Translations under genes and position numbers: made by a program
The notes under the pieces: model-generated
What the model was told of the DNA's origin: nothing
The model's input: only the letters and a program-made list of their open reading frames with translations
Database searches by the model: none
Part shown: piece by piece, positions 19,918-24,992 of the stretch
Position numbering within the stretch: the stretch's first letter is position 1
How the letters are laid out: each line of letters starts with the position of its first letter
Source of the DNA: Flexithrix dorotheae DSM 6795
GTDB taxonomy: Bacteria > Bacteroidota > Bacteroidia > Cytophagales > Flammeovirgaceae
Assembly: GCF_000379765.1 (NCBI RefSeq)
Contig: NZ_KB903487.1
Coordinates: 62,001 to 126,000, forward strand
Length of the DNA: 64,000 bases
Reading direction: 5' to 3'

Positions 19918-20085
19918 ATGGATTTTATTTATTTTACCTGGACGCCCAGCCAGGCTTTCGATAGGATCGAAGAATTAAATCAAAAAGCGATGTATGAAAG
20001 GCTTTCTGATTTTGAGCAGGAAGAATTGGATGAACTTAGAGAAGTTTTCCAGGACTCTTTCAACGAGTACGATTTTGAATTTTAA
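19918..20085 (+). CDS. Small acidic hypothetical protein of 55 residues
   Basis: ATG 19918 to TAA 20085, starting MDFIYFTWTPSQAFDRIEE. It is highly acidic, with Glu/Asp-rich helices (SDFEQEELDELREVF), and has no signal peptide. It is very likely real because an otherwise empty region carries it with a perfect intrinsic terminator 24 bp after the stop, and its codon use and composition are protein-like. The function is unknown. It may be a small regulatory or acid-rich binding protein. Confidence 0.55.
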   Translation: MDFIYFTWTPSQAFDRIEELNQKAMYERLSDFEQEELDELREVFQDSFNEYDFEF

Positions 20086-20108: not shown

Positions 20109-20135
20109 AAAACCCGGGAAACCCGGGTTTTTTTT
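20109..20135 (+). terminator. Intrinsic terminator after the 55-residue gene
   Basis: Stem AAAACCCGGG (20109-20118), loop AAA, CCCGGGTTTT (20122-20131), with Ts to 20135. It isolates the sulfur operon promoter region from upstream transcription. Confidence 0.9.
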
Positions 20136-20336
20136 GTGAGCTACTCTTTTTCATAAAATCAAAAAAAATCGGGAATCAATTGAACTTTAAATCAAGCCTT
20201 TAGGTTAGCAGATAAAGTTGGGAAATTAAATACAGGGAAATGCATACTAGTTTTTCAACTAAACCGTAAATAAGCTGATAGATTTGCAAAAGATTAGTTG
20301 ATTCATTAACATATTAATAAATTAATCACAAAAAGC

Positions 20337-20367
20337 TTGCATGGGCTTAGTTTAGTTTATAATATTG
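20337..20367 (+). promoter_or_regulatory. Candidate promoter of the sulfur assimilation operon
   Basis: TTG at 20337-20339 and TAATATTG at 20360-20367 (seven of eight positions of TAnnTTTG) are separated by 20 bp. Transcription would start near 20373, about 24 nt before the first leader peptide ATG. The copy of the repeat TTAATCACAAAAAG at 20322-20335 ends just before the -33 element. Confidence 0.45.
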
Positions 20368-20396
20368 TAACTAGAAAAAGTTTAAATATCGATTTT

Positions 20397-20495
20397 ATGT
20401 CATTAAGTACACCATTTCAAAGCCGACCAAATGCACATCATAGCTGTTGTATGATGCAGGTTTTCTATGGGAAAGGTGTGTCAATACGTCATTAA
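20397..20495 (+). CDS. Leader peptide 1 of the sulfur operon (Cys-Cys-Met-Met)
   Basis: A 32-codon ORF from ATG 20397 to TAA 20493-20495, peptide starting MSLSTPFQSR. Codons 17-20 read Cys-Cys-Met-Met (TGT TGT ATG ATG), preceded by HHS. The antiterminator strand GGAAAGGT (20470-20477) lies in codons 25-27, 13 nt after the last Met codon, and the stop is 16 nt beyond that strand. A ribosome stalled at the sulfur codons would leave this strand free, while one reaching the stop would cover it. The role is inferred from this geometry and the downstream cysteine biosynthesis genes. The ORF is too short for a usual gene call, and no Shine-Dalgarno sequence is visible, as is normal here. Confidence 0.65.
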   Translation: MSLSTPFQSRPNAHHSCCMMQVFYGKGVSIRH

Positions 20496-20551
20496 ATTTA
20501 GTACATATTCAAAATACTAAAGCCTTTCCAAATGGAAAGGCTTTTTTTTTT
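20470..20551 (+). promoter_or_regulatory. Attenuator 1: antiterminator, linker hairpin and terminator
   Basis: Strand A GGAAAGGT (20470-20477) can pair with strand B GCCTTTCC (20522-20529), seven Watson-Crick pairs and one G-U. Strand B is also the 5' arm of the terminator at 20519-20551. Between them TTTAGTA (20497-20503) pairs with TACTAAA (20515-20521), forming a hairpin that ends exactly next to strand B and could stack on the antiterminator helix. The two folds A:B and terminator exclude each other. Confidence 0.6.
20519..20551 (+). terminator. Terminator of attenuator 1
   Basis: Perfect 11-bp stem AAAGCCTTTCC (20519-20529) with GGAAAGGCTTT (20534-20544), tetraloop AAAT, and ten Ts (20542-20551). 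No upstream full-size gene on this strand needs it, so it acts in the operon leader. Confidence 0.9.
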
Positions 20552-20593
20552 GACCATGCTATTTATTTTCACCTTATTCTTAACCAAAAGCAC

Positions 20594-20680
20594 ATGAATT
20601 GTTTTAATAATTGTTGTTGTAATTGTTGTTGTTGCTGTGAAATACAGCAGCTAAAGGAAGGCTTCATACGTACCGATTGA
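20594..20680 (+). CDS. Leader peptide 2 of the sulfur operon (poly-Cys)
   Basis: A 28-codon ORF, ATG 20594 to TGA 20678-20680, peptide MNCFNNCCCNCCCCC followed by EIQQLKEGFIRTD. Nine of 28 residues are Cys (codons 3, 7-9, 11-15; eight TGT, one TGC). The antiterminator strand AGGAAGGCTT (20655-20664) lies in codons 21-24, starting 17 nt after the last Cys codon, and the stop is 14 nt further on. This is the classic layout of an amino-acid-specific leader peptide: low charged tRNA-Cys would stall the ribosome before the strand. The in-frame reading can be extended upstream to non-ATG starts near 20447, but ATG 20594 lies beyond terminator 1 and best fits a leader. Confidence 0.75.
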   Translation: MNCFNNCCCNCCCCCEIQQLKEGFIRTD

Positions 20681-20749
20681 TTTTAATTTTATTAAAAGTT
20701 AATCACAAAAAGTGTAAGCCTTCCTATTTTAAATATGAAGGTTTTTTTT
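20655..20749 (+). promoter_or_regulatory. Attenuator 2: antiterminator and terminator
   Basis: Strand A AGGAAGGCTT (20655-20664) is a perfect 10-bp complement of strand B AAGCCTTCCT (20716-20725). Strand B also forms the terminator 5' arm: AAGCCTTC (20716-20723) with GAAGGTTT (20737-20744), one G-U pair, continued inward after one mismatch by TATT/AATA. Eight Ts follow (20742-20749). A:B has ten perfect pairs and blocks the terminator. The ATG of the sulfite reductase gene is 27 nt after the T-run. Confidence 0.7.
20716..20749 (+). terminator. Terminator of attenuator 2
   Basis: Eight-bp stem (20716-20723 with 20737-20744) that can extend by four inner A-U pairs past a single mismatch, with a T-run at 20742-20749. 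It sits directly before the first structural gene at 20777. Confidence 0.75.
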
Positions 20750-20776
20750 ATCTCAAAATATATATAGTCAACCAAA

Positions 20777-22924
20777 ATGAGCACAAATCCTAATTCAAAT
20801 ATTAGTAAGGAAGCCAGAAAAGATATTCTGGAACTTGAAGAAAAAATTAAGGAATTTAATGCAGGTAAAATTCCAGAAGACAAGTTTAAGCTTTTCAGGC
20901 TAACCAGAGGTGTTTATGGACAAAGACAACTGGGCGTTCAAATGATAAGGATTAAAATTCCTTATGGAAAGATCTCCACTAAGCAATTGAAAACTATTGC
21001 GGCTACTTCAGATAAGTACAGTAATGGTAATTTGCACCTTACTACCCGGCAGGATATTCAGCTCCATTATGTAAAAGTTGAAGAGTCTCCTGCACTTTGG
21101 GCAGATTTGGAAGAGTCTGATGTTACTTTAAGAGAAGCTTGTGGAAATACAGTAAGAAATGTAACGGCTTCTGCTACAGCAGGTATTGATCCAAATGAAC
21201 TTTTTGATGTTTCTCCTTATGCACAAAAGTTATTTGAATTCTTTTTGAGAAATCCTATTTGTCAGGAAATGGGAAGGAAGTTTAAAATTGCGCTTTCTTC
21301 AAGTGATGATGATTCTGCTTTTACTTATTTCCACGATTTGGGTTTAATCCCAAGGGTACAAACGGTTGACGGAGTTGAAAAGAAAGGATTTAAGGTTTTA
21401 ATAGCTGGTGGTTTAGGCGCGCTTTCCATGATTGCTTATACTGCTTATGAATTTTTACCGGAAGAAGATGTATTACCTTTTGCAGAAGCTTTGGTAAGGG
21501 TATTTGACCGACATGGTGAAAGAGCCAGTAGAAATAAAGCCAGAATGAAATTTTTAGCCAAAAAAATAGGTGCTGAAAAAATCATGGAATTGGTGGAGGA
21601 AGAAAGAAAAGCGCTTAAAGCTAAAGCAGGTAAGATTGAATTAAAAGAAGAGGTTGTAAGTCTTCCAGAGGAAAAAGAAATTGGTGAGGTTAAACCAGTA
21701 GATGAAAAACTTTATAAAGACTGGCTGGTTACAAATGTTTTTGAGCAAAAGCAAAAAGGATATTTTGGGGTTTATGCTCTTGTACCATTAGGCAACTTTA
21801 GTTCGGATACTGCAAGGGAACTTGCGGACCTGATCAAAGATTATGCGGCTGATGATATTAGAGTGACTGTGGATCAAAACCTTCTATTTAAATATGCAAG
21901 GAAAGAAGCTCTTCCTATAATCTTCAATAAACTGTATGAATTGAATCTTGCTCAACCAGGTTTTAATTCTGCTGCTGATATTACTGCATGTCCTGGTACG
22001 GATACTTGTAACTTAGGTGTTTCGAACAGTACTGCTCTTTCACTTGAGATAGAAAAACTGATCAGAAAAGAATACCATGACCTGGTATTTGATTCTCAGA
22101 TAAAATTCAAGTTGAGCGGATGTATGAATTCGTGTGGCCAGCATATGGCTGCCAATATTGGATTCCATGGGAGTTCAATAAAAAAAGGAGCTTTAGTAAT
22201 TCCAGCCATGCAAGTAGTGATAGGAGGAGGAATTGACCCTAGCGGGAAAGGATTTGTAGCCGAAAAAGTAATTAAACTTCCTTCTAAAAAAGTGATTGAA
22301 GCGATTAGATGGATCCTTAATGATTTTGAGGAAAATAAGGAAGAAGGAGAATATTTCAATGATTACTTCTATCGGTTGGGGAAAAGATATTTCTACGATT
22401 TATTAAAGCCTCTTTCAGATACCAGTGAATTAGTAGGAGAAGATTTTGTGGATTGGGGAGATACTGAAGAGTTTAAACTGGCCATAGGTGTTGGAGAATG
22501 TGCGGGTGTAATGTATGATATGATTGGGTTGATTTTGAAAGATGCTGAAACTAAAGTGGGATTAGCAAAAGAAGCCATTGAGGAAGGACATTATGCAGAC
22601 GCCATTTACCATGCATATAATGTGAAAATCATTGCTGCAAAAGCACTATTACTGAGTGATGATGTAAAATGTAATACACAAATCGGTATCATCCGTGATT
22701 TTGATAAGCATTTTGTATCAACTGGAAAGTTCAAATTTGAAGGTTCTTTTGAGGAAGATGTACTTCAATTGAATAAGCAGGAGCCATCCAAAGAATTTGC
22801 AGAAAGCTATTTGGCAAATGGAGTTAAGTTTTTCAAGGAAGTATTAGCACACAGAAAAGATCAAATCCAACAAGACAAAAATCAGGATGAAAAGTTGGTG
22901 ATTGAGGATTATTATAAAGCTTAA
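20777..22924 (+). CDS. Siroheme sulfite (or nitrite) reductase with C-terminal HEPN domain
   Basis: 715 residues. Residues of about 40-550 are the duplicated ferredoxin-like and siroheme-binding core of nitrite/sulfite reductases. The [4Fe-4S]-siroheme cysteines are visible as CPGTDTCNLG (C-x5-C) near residue 413 and SGCMNSCGQH (C-x3-C) near residue 450. After residue of about 575 a helical HEPN-type domain follows (ECAGVMYDMIGLILKDAE, and AIYHAYNVKIIAAKALLL). With cysH-type and siroheme genes downstream, the role is six-electron reduction of sulfite to sulfide; nitrite reduction is the alternative. The HEPN tail is not needed for catalysis and may mediate oligomerisation or regulation. Expression appears controlled by two attenuators. 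Confidence 0.9.
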   Translation: MSTNPNSNISKEARKDILELEEKIKEFNAGKIPEDKFKLFRLTRGVYGQRQLGVQMIRIKIPYGKISTKQLKTIAATSDKYSNGNLHLTTRQDIQLHYVKVEESPALWADLEESDVTLREACGNTVRNVTASATAGIDPNELFDVSPYAQKLFEFFLRNPICQEMGRKFKIALSSSDDDSAFTYFHDLGLIPRVQTVDGVEKKGFKVLIAGGLGALSMIAYTAYEFLPEEDVLPFAEALVRVFDRHGERASRNKARMKFLAKKIGAEKIMELVEEERKALKAKAGKIELKEEVVSLPEEKEIGEVKPVDEKLYKDWLVTNVFEQKQKGYFGVYALVPLGNFSSDTARELADLIKDYAADDIRVTVDQNLLFKYARKEALPIIFNKLYELNLAQPGFNSAADITACPGTDTCNLGVSNSTALSLEIEKLIRKEYHDLVFDSQIKFKLSGCMNSCGQHMAANIGFHGSSIKKGALVIPAMQVVIGGGIDPSGKGFVAEKVIKLPSKKVIEAIRWILNDFEENKEEGEYFNDYFYRLGKRYFYDLLKPLSDTSELVGEDFVDWGDTEEFKLAIGVGECAGVMYDMIGLILKDAETKVGLAKEAIEEGHYADAIYHAYNVKIIAAKALLLSDDVKCNTQIGIIRDFDKHFVSTGKFKFEGSFEEDVLQLNKQEPSKEFAESYLANGVKFFKEVLAHRKDQIQQDKNQDEKLVIEDYYKA

Positions 22925-23685
22925 TGATAAAGAAACTTACTTTGGTTGGGGCGGGACCCGGTGATCCTGATTTGATAAGTGTAAAAGGAGTAAAAGCACT
23001 ACAAAATGCAAGGGTAGTGCTTTATGATGCTCTTGTGCATACAGATTTATTGGATTATGCTCCGGAAAATTCAACCAAAATATTTGTAGGAAAAAGGTCT
23101 GGAGCTCATAGTTATAAGCAGGAGAAAATTAATGAAATAATTGTTTCCCAAGCGCTTACTAAGGGCAGTGTGGTGAGACTCAAGGGTGGAGATCCATTTA
23201 TTTTTGGCAGAGGACATGAAGAAAAGGAATATGCAGAAAGTTTTGGTATTGAGGTGGAAGTGATTCCCGGAATTTCCAGTGCAACCTCGCTGTCGGGTCT
23301 CCAAAGTATTCCATTAACCAGAAGGGAAATTACGCATAGTTTCTGGGTAACCACAGCTACCGGAAGTGAAAATGAATTGACCGGAGATATCAAAGTTGCT
23401 GCCGGAACCAATGCCACTTTGGTAGTTTTGATGGGGATGAAAAAATTACCTCAAATTTCAAAACTGTTTAAAGTTTTAGGGAAAGCAGAAACCCCTGTTT
23501 TGATTATCCAGAATGGTTCATTGCCCGGAGAGCAAATTGTGGTAGGAACAATGGAAAATATAGTGGAGAAAGTGGAAGAGAGAAAAATTGGTACTCCTGC
23601 CATTATTGTGATTGGGGAGGTGGTAAAACTTCATCCTGAGTTTGTGATGGAATATGTCTCCAATAATTATTACTACGAAGGCTAG
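22924..23685 (+). CDS. cobA: Uroporphyrinogen-III C-methyltransferase
   Basis: 253 residues, full length for the single-domain enzyme. The SAM-binding start LVGAGPGDPDLISVKG, the segment RLKGGDPFIFGRGHEE, and VIPGISSATS are diagnostic. It methylates uroporphyrinogen III twice using SAM to make precorrin-2, the precursor of siroheme needed by the sulfite reductase just upstream. The ATG overlaps the preceding TAA by one base (TAATGA), indicating translational coupling in one operon. The symbol cobA is used here for the single-domain SUMT; a cobalamin role is possible but the context says siroheme. Confidence 0.93.
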   Translation: MIKKLTLVGAGPGDPDLISVKGVKALQNARVVLYDALVHTDLLDYAPENSTKIFVGKRSGAHSYKQEKINEIIVSQALTKGSVVRLKGGDPFIFGRGHEEKEYAESFGIEVEVIPGISSATSLSGLQSIPLTRREITHSFWVTTATGSENELTGDIKVAAGTNATLVVLMGMKKLPQISKLFKVLGKAETPVLIIQNGSLPGEQIVVGTMENIVEKVEERKIGTPAIIVIGEVVKLHPEFVMEYVSNNYYYEG

Positions 23686-23689
23686 TTTT

Positions 23690-24316
23690 ATGGATCAATC
23701 TGCTGAAAATATATCTCGAAATGTACTTTATCCAGTTTTCCTGAAACTGGACAAATTTGACATTTTAATAGTTGGAGGAGGGGATGCAGGCGCAGAAAAA
23801 ATGAGATATATAATGAAAAGCAGCCCCAATGCAAGAGTTACCCTGGTCGCTCCTGAGTTCATTGAAGAGGTTGCGGAAATAGCCGGAAGACATGAGCAGG
23901 TAATTGTGCACAAAAGAAATTTTGAGGAGGGAGATTTAAATGGGAAAAAACTGGTGATTGTAGCCACTGACGATCACGAATTAAACAAGGAAATCAGGGA
24001 ATTGGCAGTTGCCAGAAATATACTTACTAATGTAGCTGATACGCCTGATTTGTGTGATTTTTATCTGGGATCAATTGTGACTAAAGGAGATCTTAAAGTT
24101 GCTATTTCCACAAATGGAAAATCACCAACTTTTGCCAAGAGGTTCAGAATGCTTCTTGAGGATATTTTACCAGAAAATATTACGGAAACCCTTGACAGAC
24201 TCAAAACCATTAGGGACAGTCTTAAAGGAGATTTCCAGCATAAAATAGACGTACTTAATCAAATTACTTCAAACCTAATTGAGAAGAATGACAAAAATGG
24301 AGACACAGGAAGTTGA
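23690..24316 (+). CDS. Precorrin-2 dehydrogenase / sirohydrochlorin ferrochelatase (siroheme synthase)
   Basis: 208 residues from ATG 23690, chosen because it follows the previous stop by 4 bp and gives the family start (LYPVFLKLDKFDILIVGGGDAG). An upstream in-frame ATG at 23654 would overlap cobA. The NAD-binding motif VGGGDAG and the later NVADTPDLCDFYLGS and ISTNGKSPTFAKRFR segments are typical of the CysG N-terminal/Met8p-type enzyme. It oxidises precorrin-2 to sirohydrochlorin and inserts iron to give siroheme. Together with cobA it supplies the cofactor for the sulfite reductase. Its end overlaps the start of the next gene. Confidence 0.9.
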   Translation: MDQSAENISRNVLYPVFLKLDKFDILIVGGGDAGAEKMRYIMKSSPNARVTLVAPEFIEEVAEIAGRHEQVIVHKRNFEEGDLNGKKLVIVATDDHELNKEIRELAVARNILTNVADTPDLCDFYLGSIVTKGDLKVAISTNGKSPTFAKRFRMLLEDILPENITETLDRLKTIRDSLKGDFQHKIDVLNQITSNLIEKNDKNGDTGS

Positions 24317-24992
24317 AACAGAATCGCTTAATTTACTTTACAATAAATTAAAACCAGAAGAAAGGTTGGGGTTATTATACCAGGATTTTCCTAACAATCA
24401 GGTTTTAATGACTTCTTCTTTTGGAACAACTTCAGTTTATTTGTTGCATTTGATCAGCCGAATAAATAAAAACCAGAAAGTATATTTTATCAACACAAAT
24501 TATCACTTTCAGGAAACTTTAAATTATAAAAATCAACTTCAGGATTTGCTGGGGATAGAAATAGTTGACCTGCATCCTGATAAATTACATAATAAATTTA
24601 CCACTGAAAATCAGACCTGGAAGGAAAATCCGGATTTGTGTTGCTCGGTAAATAAAGTTTTGCCTCTCAATAGCCTTAAAGAAAAACACCAGGTGTGGAT
24701 TTCAGGATTAATTGGTCAGCAAAATGATTTTAGAAACGGAAGATCAATCTTTGAACAGACTAAGGAAATTTTAAAATTCCACCCGATAATAGATGTTTCT
24801 CTGGATGAAGTCAATAAGCATATTGCCAAATACAACCTGCCAAGAAACCCCTTGTTGAGTAAGGGATATGGTTCAGTAGGATGTATGCACTGTACTTCGA
24901 AAGGAGAAGGCAGAACCGGAAGATGGAAAACCAGTACGAAAACTGAATGTGGACTTCATGTTCAGCCCAAAGCTGTTCAGATGGCAGTTTAA
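24288..24992 (+). CDS. cysH: APS/PAPS reductase (adenylylsulfate reductase, thioredoxin-type)
   Basis: About 235 residues. The PP-loop-like motif TSSFGTTS near residue 40 and the C-terminal active site KTECGLH are typical of CysH. Two more Cys pairs, DLCCSVNKV near residue 126 and GCMHC near residue 204, match the [4Fe-4S]-binding set of the form that uses APS, so APS rather than PAPS is the likely substrate. It makes sulfite for the reductase encoded first in the operon. ATG 24288 or 24297 is the probable start; both overlap the upstream gene. Sulfate adenylyltransferase and transport genes are not in the window. Confidence 0.9.
   Translation: MTKMETQEVETESLNLLYNKLKPEERLGLLYQDFPNNQVLMTSSFGTTSVYLLHLISRINKNQKVYFINTNYHFQETLNYKNQLQDLLGIEIVDLHPDKLHNKFTTENQTWKENPDLCCSVNKVLPLNSLKEKHQVWISGLIGQQNDFRNGRSIFEQTKEILKFHPIIDVSLDEVNKHIAKYNLPRNPLLSKGYGSVGCMHCTSKGEGRTGRWKTSTKTECGLHVQPKAVQMAV

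Follow-up and report, generated by a model that had tools for sequence, protein, structure and literature searches.

What do two short cysteine-rich reading frames, each followed by a hairpin, do in front of an operon for sulfite reduction? The question is raised by the window, by which we mean the whole 64,000-nucleotide stretch of Flexithrix dorotheae DNA that was analysed, and in particular by the few hundred nucleotides that precede its sulfite reductase gene (Table 1). We think it very probable, judging from the sequence, that a single transcript carries both as ribosome-mediated transcription attenuators, one after the other, through which cysteine supply would control the sulfite reduction operon. 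If this is true, many Bacteroidota would switch sulfate assimilation directly by cysteine supply, with no regulator in between, and a single orthologous operon would offer single and double attenuators side by side in nature, in which the assumed gain of serial gates (lower leak, steeper response) is measurable. Conserved peptide motifs in some of the leaders might, in addition, point to new arrest peptides in sulfur metabolism.

A preliminary description of this DNA placed sulfite reductase, siroheme synthesis and APS reductase genes downstream of the leaders, and the Pfam and NCBIfam matches agree, those of the sulfite reductase to NCBIfam models lying below their cut-offs; that its substrate is sulfite would follow from the neighbouring genes. 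The four genes of the operon (20777-24992) overlap end to start. Cysteine is the amino acid made by the pathway that this operon serves. We also note a weak match to a HEPN domain at the C-terminus of the sulfite reductase (residues 587-651, 24.7 bits against a cut-off of 22).

Table 1. Features of the window upstream of and within the sulfite reduction operon
Feature	Position	Strand	Remarks
Candidate promoter: TTG (20337-20339), 20-nt spacer, TAATATTG (20360-20367)	20337-20367	+	similar sequence in L003 and L084 (alignment); weak
Leader ORF 1, MSLSTPFQSRPNAHHSCCMMQVFYGKGVSIRH	20397-20495	+	counterparts in loci L003 and L084; related leader before 2-oxoacid:acceptor oxidoreductase genes
Leader 1 codons 5-18, TPFQSRPNAHHSCC	20409-20450	+	conserved at the amino-acid level
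Leader 1 regulatory sulfur codons, Cys Cys Met Met	20445-20456	+	from translation
Antiterminator strand A1, GGAAAGG	20470-20476	+	within leader ORF 1; complementary to CCTTTCC at 20523-20529
Terminator 1, AAAGCCTTTCC-AAAT-GGAAAGGCTTT	20519-20551	+	5' arm 20519-20529, 3' arm 20534-20544, U tract up to 20551
Leader ORF 2, MNCFNNCCCNCCCCCEIQQLKEGFIRTD	20594-20680	+	counterpart in L003
Leader 2 Cys codon cluster, CCCNCCCCC	20612-20638	+	from translation
Antiterminator strand A2, GGAAGGCTT	20656-20664	+	within leader ORF 2; complementary to AAGCCTTCC at 20716-20724
Terminator 2, weak hairpin	20716-20749	+	5' arm 20716-20724, 3' arm 20737-20744, U tract up to 20749
Sulfite reductase (nitrite/sulfite reductase family), first structural gene	20777-22924	+	PF01077, PF03460; NirA/CysI-type NCBIfam matches, all below cut-off
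Uroporphyrinogen-III C-methyltransferase (siroheme synthesis)	22924-23685	+	TIGR01469 above cut-off
Siroheme synthase N-terminal-type dehydrogenase	23654-24316	+	TIGR01470 above cut-off
(Phospho)adenylyl-sulfate reductase CysH	24279-24992	+	NF002537 above cut-off

Two leader units and a proposed mechanism

The two leader ORFs are confirmed, each with an antiterminator strand (A) after its sulfur codons and with its own terminator, the 5' and 3' arms of which we call B and C. In leader 1 the distance to A1 is 13 nt from the last Met codon and 19 nt from the last Cys codon, and 16 nt separate A1 from the stop; in leader 2 there are 17 nt from the last Cys codon to A2 and 13 nt from A2 to the stop. 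The distances first reported (13 and 16 nt to the strand, 15 and 13 nt to the stop) were therefore correct to within 1 nt. Terminator 1 (20519-20544) has a folding energy of -16.1 kcal/mol and terminator 2 (20716-20744) one of only -8.4 to -8.9 kcal/mol, each followed by U's; terminator 1 is listed in a simple terminator scan of the window and terminator 2 is absent from it. When each leader-terminator segment was compared with 200 dinucleotide shuffles, none folded as well (z = -3.7 and -4.8). Across the whole window there was no match at gathering score to any Rfam family, the cis-regulatory ones (SAM riboswitches, T-box, amino-acid leaders) included, and the matches at 20150-20800 are all below threshold (for example Phe_leader, 28.9 bits against 55). 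Further upstream, a small ORF of 55 codons (19918-20085) lies just 5' of a strong terminator-like hairpin, AAAACCCGGGAAACCCGGGTTTT (20109-20131).

We propose that, when Cys-tRNA is ample, the ribosome would pass the sulfur codons, reach the leader stop and cover strand A, leaving B free to pair with C, so that the terminator would form and RNA polymerase would stop. When Cys-tRNA is short, the ribosome would stall on the Cys (or Cys and Met) codons and leave A exposed to pair with the emerging B; with A:B formed, the terminator would come too late and transcription would continue. The polymerase would have to pass such a test twice before reaching the sulfite reductase gene. What the DNA itself shows is the set of parts and how they are spaced, how they recur at orthologous loci, the leader-specific complementarity of A and B and the purifying selection described below; from this we infer that ribosome stalling and termination would occur at both gates.

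Bacteroidota promoters have a -33/-7 consensus, with TAnnTTTG as the -7 motif. The candidate at 20337-20367 lacks an exact TAnnTTTG; there is one at position 20279 of the window, where L003 reads CAGATTTG. Only 17 of 51 loci have the strict motif in the 150 nt that precede the first leader, and claims about the promoter are therefore weak.

Recurrence at orthologous loci

We assembled a sample of 108 sulfite reductase loci, consisting of the window, the best 80 of at least 551 relatives (the nearest relatives from a scan of genome contigs, and no census) and 27 of 29 further loci from 58 related genomes. Counts refer to the 105 loci with at least 250 nt of upstream sequence, which leaves out L031, L053 and L065. 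L083, on the same contig as L003, and L111, a partial gene at a contig end, were excluded from all counts; L096, taken as the same contig as L062, and L108, whose first 300 residues equal those of L106, are still within the 105. To count under our strict rule, an ORF had to start with ATG and hold two or more Cys within three codons, and it had to be accompanied by a hairpin of -10 kcal/mol or below that has a T tract and a 5' arm 40-85 nt beyond the last Cys; looser cut-offs were needed to admit the weak terminator 2 and so to count both gates of the window.

Conservation of the leader ORFs at related loci, which was to be expected on the preliminary description, is borne out by a complete Cys leader with terminator on the sense strand at 49 of 105 loci under the strict rule, 14 of them in tandem, and by pairing that is specific to each leader's own arms (see below). 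Under the loose rule the element is found at 51 of 105 loci (17 in tandem) and never in antisense. By the strict rule none of 105 antisense sequences, 315 coding windows or 95 windows lying further upstream shows the complete architecture, and 10 sets of dinucleotide shuffles, made from a set in which 17 loci faced the wrong side, held no locus with it. Cys-rich ORFs as such are present in sense at 57 of 105 loci, compared with 6 of 105 in antisense. By record title the carriers include Saprospiraceae, Fulvivirga, Cesiribacter, Marinoscillum, Adhaeribacter, Mucilaginibacter and Parapedobacter. Even by the loose rule 54 of the 105 loci lack the element, among them all six from Neolewinella or Lewinella and both from Larkinella; it is common in this sample and not universal. 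The leaders of L004, L010 and L045 start with GTG or TTG and are missed by the ATG rule, and L034, L035 and L037, scored as single, have an extra upstream poly-Cys ORF with no accepted terminator of its own. We note that L034 comes from a metagenome-assembled genome titled Rickettsiales whose sulfite reductase and leaders are near-identical to the ones in Marinoscillum pacificum (L035), which suggests a wrong label or a contamination of the record.

Close orthologous leaders indicate that their peptides are under purifying selection. Seven pooled pairs, which do not include L039/L046, show 22.2 synonymous differences over 106.5 sites and 39.8 nonsynonymous differences over 466.5 sites (p = 8e-4). 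Six of the seven fit purifying selection, and leader 2 of L028/L030 is reversed, with more nonsynonymous differences per site. The short translated leader ORF of a ribosome-mediated attenuator is thus represented here by the ORFs themselves and by selection on them, translation being deduced from the sequence. A run of codons for the pathway's own amino acid and a terminator between leader and gene are likewise present.

Pairing and folding of the antiterminator strands

The complementarity of A and B is specific to each leader. Among 66 leaders (L003 and L096 left out), a leader's own A:B pairing has a mean of -10.23 kcal/mol, compared with -7.70 kcal/mol when arms are swapped among leaders, and none of 10,000 permutations reaches the observed value; 36 of the 66 pair better than 95% of shuffles of their own leader, where 3.3 would be expected. 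In a set of 66 leaders (L003, L096 and L108 left out), 61% have the start of the best A:B helix 12-19 nt beyond the final Cys codon, compared with 38% for swapped arms (maximum 54% in 300 sets) and 22% for shuffled leaders (maximum 36%). At this distance the RNA would be free if a ribosome were stalled on the final Cys codon.

We also folded the RNA as it would be before the 3' arm is made. B is then paired upstream with a mean probability of 0.70 with the ribosome stalled on the last Cys codon, 0.16 with the ribosome at the stop and 0.40 when the leader is shuffled, and 62 of 68 leaders (L096 and L108 left out) differ between stalled and stop by more than 0.2 in the predicted direction, with none in the opposite one. 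For the window the values, stalled and at the stop, are 0.92 and 0.00 at gate 1 and 0.77 and 0.21 at gate 2. The second gates of L084 (0.36 stalled, 0.39 shuffled) and L011 (0.43 and 0.49) fail. The E. coli leaders thrL, trpL, leuL and hisL gave 0.44-0.62 stalled and 0.00-0.24 at the stop; the test is imperfect, because hisL, a proven attenuator, also does no better than its shuffles (0.44 and 0.45). Pairing, spacing and folding all point to a competing antiterminator strand that stalling at the codons would free, as in a ribosome-mediated attenuator.

Folding to full equilibrium gave a different picture. Terminators win in nearly all states, here as in the E. coli controls, and in most loci (L096 and L108 left out) and in the controls such folding does not separate the stalled from the terminated state. 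In the window, terminator 1 beats A1:B1 whatever the state of the ribosome (probability 0.89-0.95), so that gate 1 must work by the order of folding; terminator 2 needs a ribosome at the stop in order to form. In classical attenuators the order of folding is held to matter.

Tandem units and their proposed action in series

The preliminary description knew of no such leaders in tandem in Bacteroidota. In nature this is untrue, as tandem Cys attenuators are found at 17 of 105 loci by the loose rule. On a tree of 103 sulfite reductases (L096 and L108 left out) the tandem label, carried by 17 rows, requires 11 changes, at least 7 of them on well-supported branches, and we therefore conclude that gains or losses of the double arrangement were frequent. 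One tandem clade, with full support, is made up of the window, L003 and L084. Terminator 1 and leader 2 are separated by 8-73 nt in 16 of the 17 tandem loci, and in L005 the first ATG of leader 2 lies inside terminator 1. TAnnTTTG is absent between the gates of 16 of the 17, each of which has two complete units by the loose rule. Both the gap lengths and this absence are in keeping with one transcript for both gates.

It is conceivable that a single gate is active in this genome and that the other is a decaying duplicate, as might be suggested by the weakness of terminator 2 (-8.4 kcal/mol) and its absence, at equilibrium, from the naked or stalled leader. However, A2, B2 and C2 are identical in the alignment of the window with L003 and the tandem is recurrent, and we regard this reading as improbable. 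If, as we prefer, both gates work in series, they may sharpen or tighten the response. Folding further predicts that, in the window and L003, an untranslated gate 1 would terminate and an untranslated gate 2 would be read through. Such opposite defaults are absent from the folds of the other 15 tandem loci and may be a quirk of their clade.

Cysteine, methionine and other target operons

It had been proposed that the series senses charged tRNA-Cys and tRNA-Met. The cysteine part is strongly supported by comparison, and the methionine part is only suggested by it. That cysteine is the sensed amino acid is, on sequence evidence, well supported, and Cys-tRNA would be the signal. Turning to methionine, in 59 leaders, all from correctly oriented loci, Met makes up 58 of 416 residues within Cys clusters or at most three residues from them (Cys excluded), compared with 36 of 949 elsewhere (Fisher p = 1e-10), and 21 of 174 after the cluster alone (p = 4e-5). 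An enrichment of Met beside Cys suits a sulfur-amino-acid sensor, and the spacing of leader 1, in which A1 is 13 nt from the last Met yet 19 nt from the last Cys, also favours a sensing of methionine through Met codons in the runs. On the other hand, leader 2 has no Met save its start, several other leaders have none near the Cys run, and a Met before the cluster may be an internal or alternative start. No relative separates the sensing of Cys from that of Met. We consider that the leaders may sense methionine as well as cysteine, though this is somewhat doubtful.

Leaders of this kind are also found at other operons. In this genome (G000) the leader MLSFAQNIICLTAAATCCCCCAMRIGRIRLCMSKV and a terminator precede a cysteine-synthase-type gene, whose best NCBIfam match is to cysteine synthase B (317.8 bits, below the cut-off of 394.2) and which is followed by JAB and ThiF-rhodanese genes. 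Among the best 30 such loci in 38 genomes, the leader is present in the four nearest orthologues (G000, G001, G002 and G025; 61-100% identical), and no such leader was found in G021 (59%) or at 25 more distant loci. The gene in G025, which belongs to another family of the order, has tandem poly-Cys attenuators (L170, 1030-1422). A Cys leader and terminator also precede genes for a 2-oxoacid:acceptor oxidoreductase (TIGR03710 above cut-off) at 3 of 11 loci, in G000, G001 and G002; a possible reason is the supply of reduced ferredoxin to sulfite reductase. At the locus in G000 (L148, 880-1300; G000:C1:446879-447299) the leader and terminator are followed by a short ORF, MLLSCCCCK, with MLLSCCCCI in a like place in G001 and MFHYCCCK in G002, and no obvious terminator.

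Searching G000 for DNA that could encode CCCC gave 40 matches and led to three leaders with terminators, leader 2 of the window included. DNA that could encode CCCCC was sought in eight genomes, and 40 stretches chosen from the list, rather than every match, yielded ten candidate rows, both G025 cysteine synthase leaders among them; the other eight rows were set aside for TTG or GTG starts, a position inside longer ORFs or poor terminators. Could the Cys-rich ORFs then be no more than a chance reading of TGT repeats, or encode small metal-binding proteins that are unrelated to the terminators? TGY runs are indeed common, with many per genome, and 32 of the 40 chosen stretches gave no candidate unit, but the specificity of strand and position, the spacing from Cys to A and the purifying selection make this explanation extremely improbable.

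Conserved peptide motifs

Our model of ribosome-mediated attenuation treats the leaders as counters of codons, and some of them conserve more than such counting requires. Codons 5-18 of leader 1 differ from those of L003 by four synonymous and no nonsynonymous changes, while residues 2-4, 21, 25 and 30 vary. The oxidoreductase leader carries TPYQSRPNAHNSCC; compared with leader 1 it has six synonymous and four nonsynonymous differences (p = 9e-4), the two leaders using different codons, AGC and TCT, for one serine, and its copies in G000 and G001 differ by four synonymous and no nonsynonymous changes. The residues common to these leaders are TPxQSRPNAHxSCC. As DNA, the strict leader 1 motif has five matches, spread over 3 of the order's 390 genomes and all standing before one of these sulfite reductase or oxidoreductase operons, and the backward control pattern has one match. 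Other Cytophagales sulfite reductase leaders conserve the class of ACWFWCC. (K/R)RCACWFWCC or RRACWFWCC occurs in 5 of the 390 genomes, always upstream of sulfite reductase, with no match to the control; a terminator follows in four of the five, and none was found behind the G031 leader. The rows of the class are L110/L275 (the same place, in G031), L274, L276, L277 and L278, and it is also seen in L025 and L027. Trp codons are no sulfur codons, and so the peptide of this class may itself matter. Neither motif is needed by a pure codon-counting model.

When an arrest peptide stalls its ribosome, the constrained residues sit in the exit tunnel. Leader 1 shows such constraint on residues that precede the stall site, beyond the regulatory codons, and the ACWFWCC class shows it through recurrence of the motif. 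One might suppose that leader 1 and the ACWFWCC class are arrest peptides that answer a metabolite or a metal; with Cys-tRNA read by leader 2, the two gates would then sense two signals. The lack of nonsynonymous change both to L003 and between the oxidoreductase copies, while other residues of leader 1 change, would fit this, as would the likelihood that, with the CCMM codons in the A site, the conserved residues occupy the tunnel, and the recurrence of ACWFWCC upstream of sulfite reductase. The leader 1 motif nevertheless still ends in Cys Cys Met Met and is followed by a terminator of the usual kind; only 3 of the 390 genomes have the strict motif, with a control that matched once, and shared descent partly explains it; most of the detected leaders are Cys runs with neither motif; and the G031 leader has no terminator that we could find. 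We judge an arrest-peptide role rather unlikely. The full two-signal device, in which gate 2 would count Cys-tRNA and gate 1 would be a nascent-peptide sensor, through TPxQSRPNAHxSCC, for a metal or metabolite of sulfur metabolism, seems to us more unlikely again.

Relation to known systems

As putative attenuators that count codons, the units closely resemble trpL, hisL, thrL and leuL of Gammaproteobacteria, with which they share a short leader ORF, a run of codons, strand A, a competing intrinsic terminator and similar behaviour in the folding test. They differ from these in that the codon is that of cysteine, the hosts are Bacteroidota and two gates may stand in a row.

Short ORFs with consecutive Cys codons are known upstream of sulfur or cysteine genes in Actinobacteria. 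For the poly-cysteine leaders of cys operons in Mycobacterium, Propionibacterium and Bifidobacterium, no conserved terminator hairpin is reported to have been found (PMC1262725), and the control exerted by a Cys leader in M. smegmatis is termed translation attenuation (PMC13236596). By contrast, the leaders described here have intrinsic terminators with matching antiterminators, often two, whereas the mycobacterial arrangement, as these papers present it, has no conserved terminator and acts on translation of the next gene. Closer in this respect is uORFC-8-2, before cysS in Rhodobacterales, in which conserved Cys codons in a uORF are followed by an intrinsic terminator; it differs in having two Cys codons, a tRNA synthetase gene as its target, one unit in the part of the account available and a host among Alphaproteobacteria (PMC8632094).

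Leaders in series also have precedents. In Salmonella mgtCBR one leader ORF follows another, and one of the pair is specific for proline codons; the two respond to different signals and the stem-loops are unlike intrinsic terminators (PMC3641672). The same paper cites tandem riboswitches before metE of B. clausii (PMC3641672). In some Gammaproteobacteria the rimP-leader is joined by a further terminator, so that here too a gene is preceded by two terminators in a row, of which one has a candidate antiterminator; no Cys leader is named in the excerpt (PMC2965389).

Within the phylum of the window, leader-peptide attenuation has been mentioned for amino-acid operons of Flavobacterium psychrophilum (PMC9723704), and sORFs in long 5' UTRs have been mentioned for Bacteroides thetaiotaomicron (PMC7366714), no cysteine leader being named in the available parts of either report. 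In the literature searched, outside which most subscription journals lie, we found no report of Cys-leader attenuators in Bacteroidota. The principle of the attenuator is known; what appears to be new is a probable cysteine attenuator with intrinsic terminators that is common in the sampled Bacteroidota and has repeatedly been doubled.
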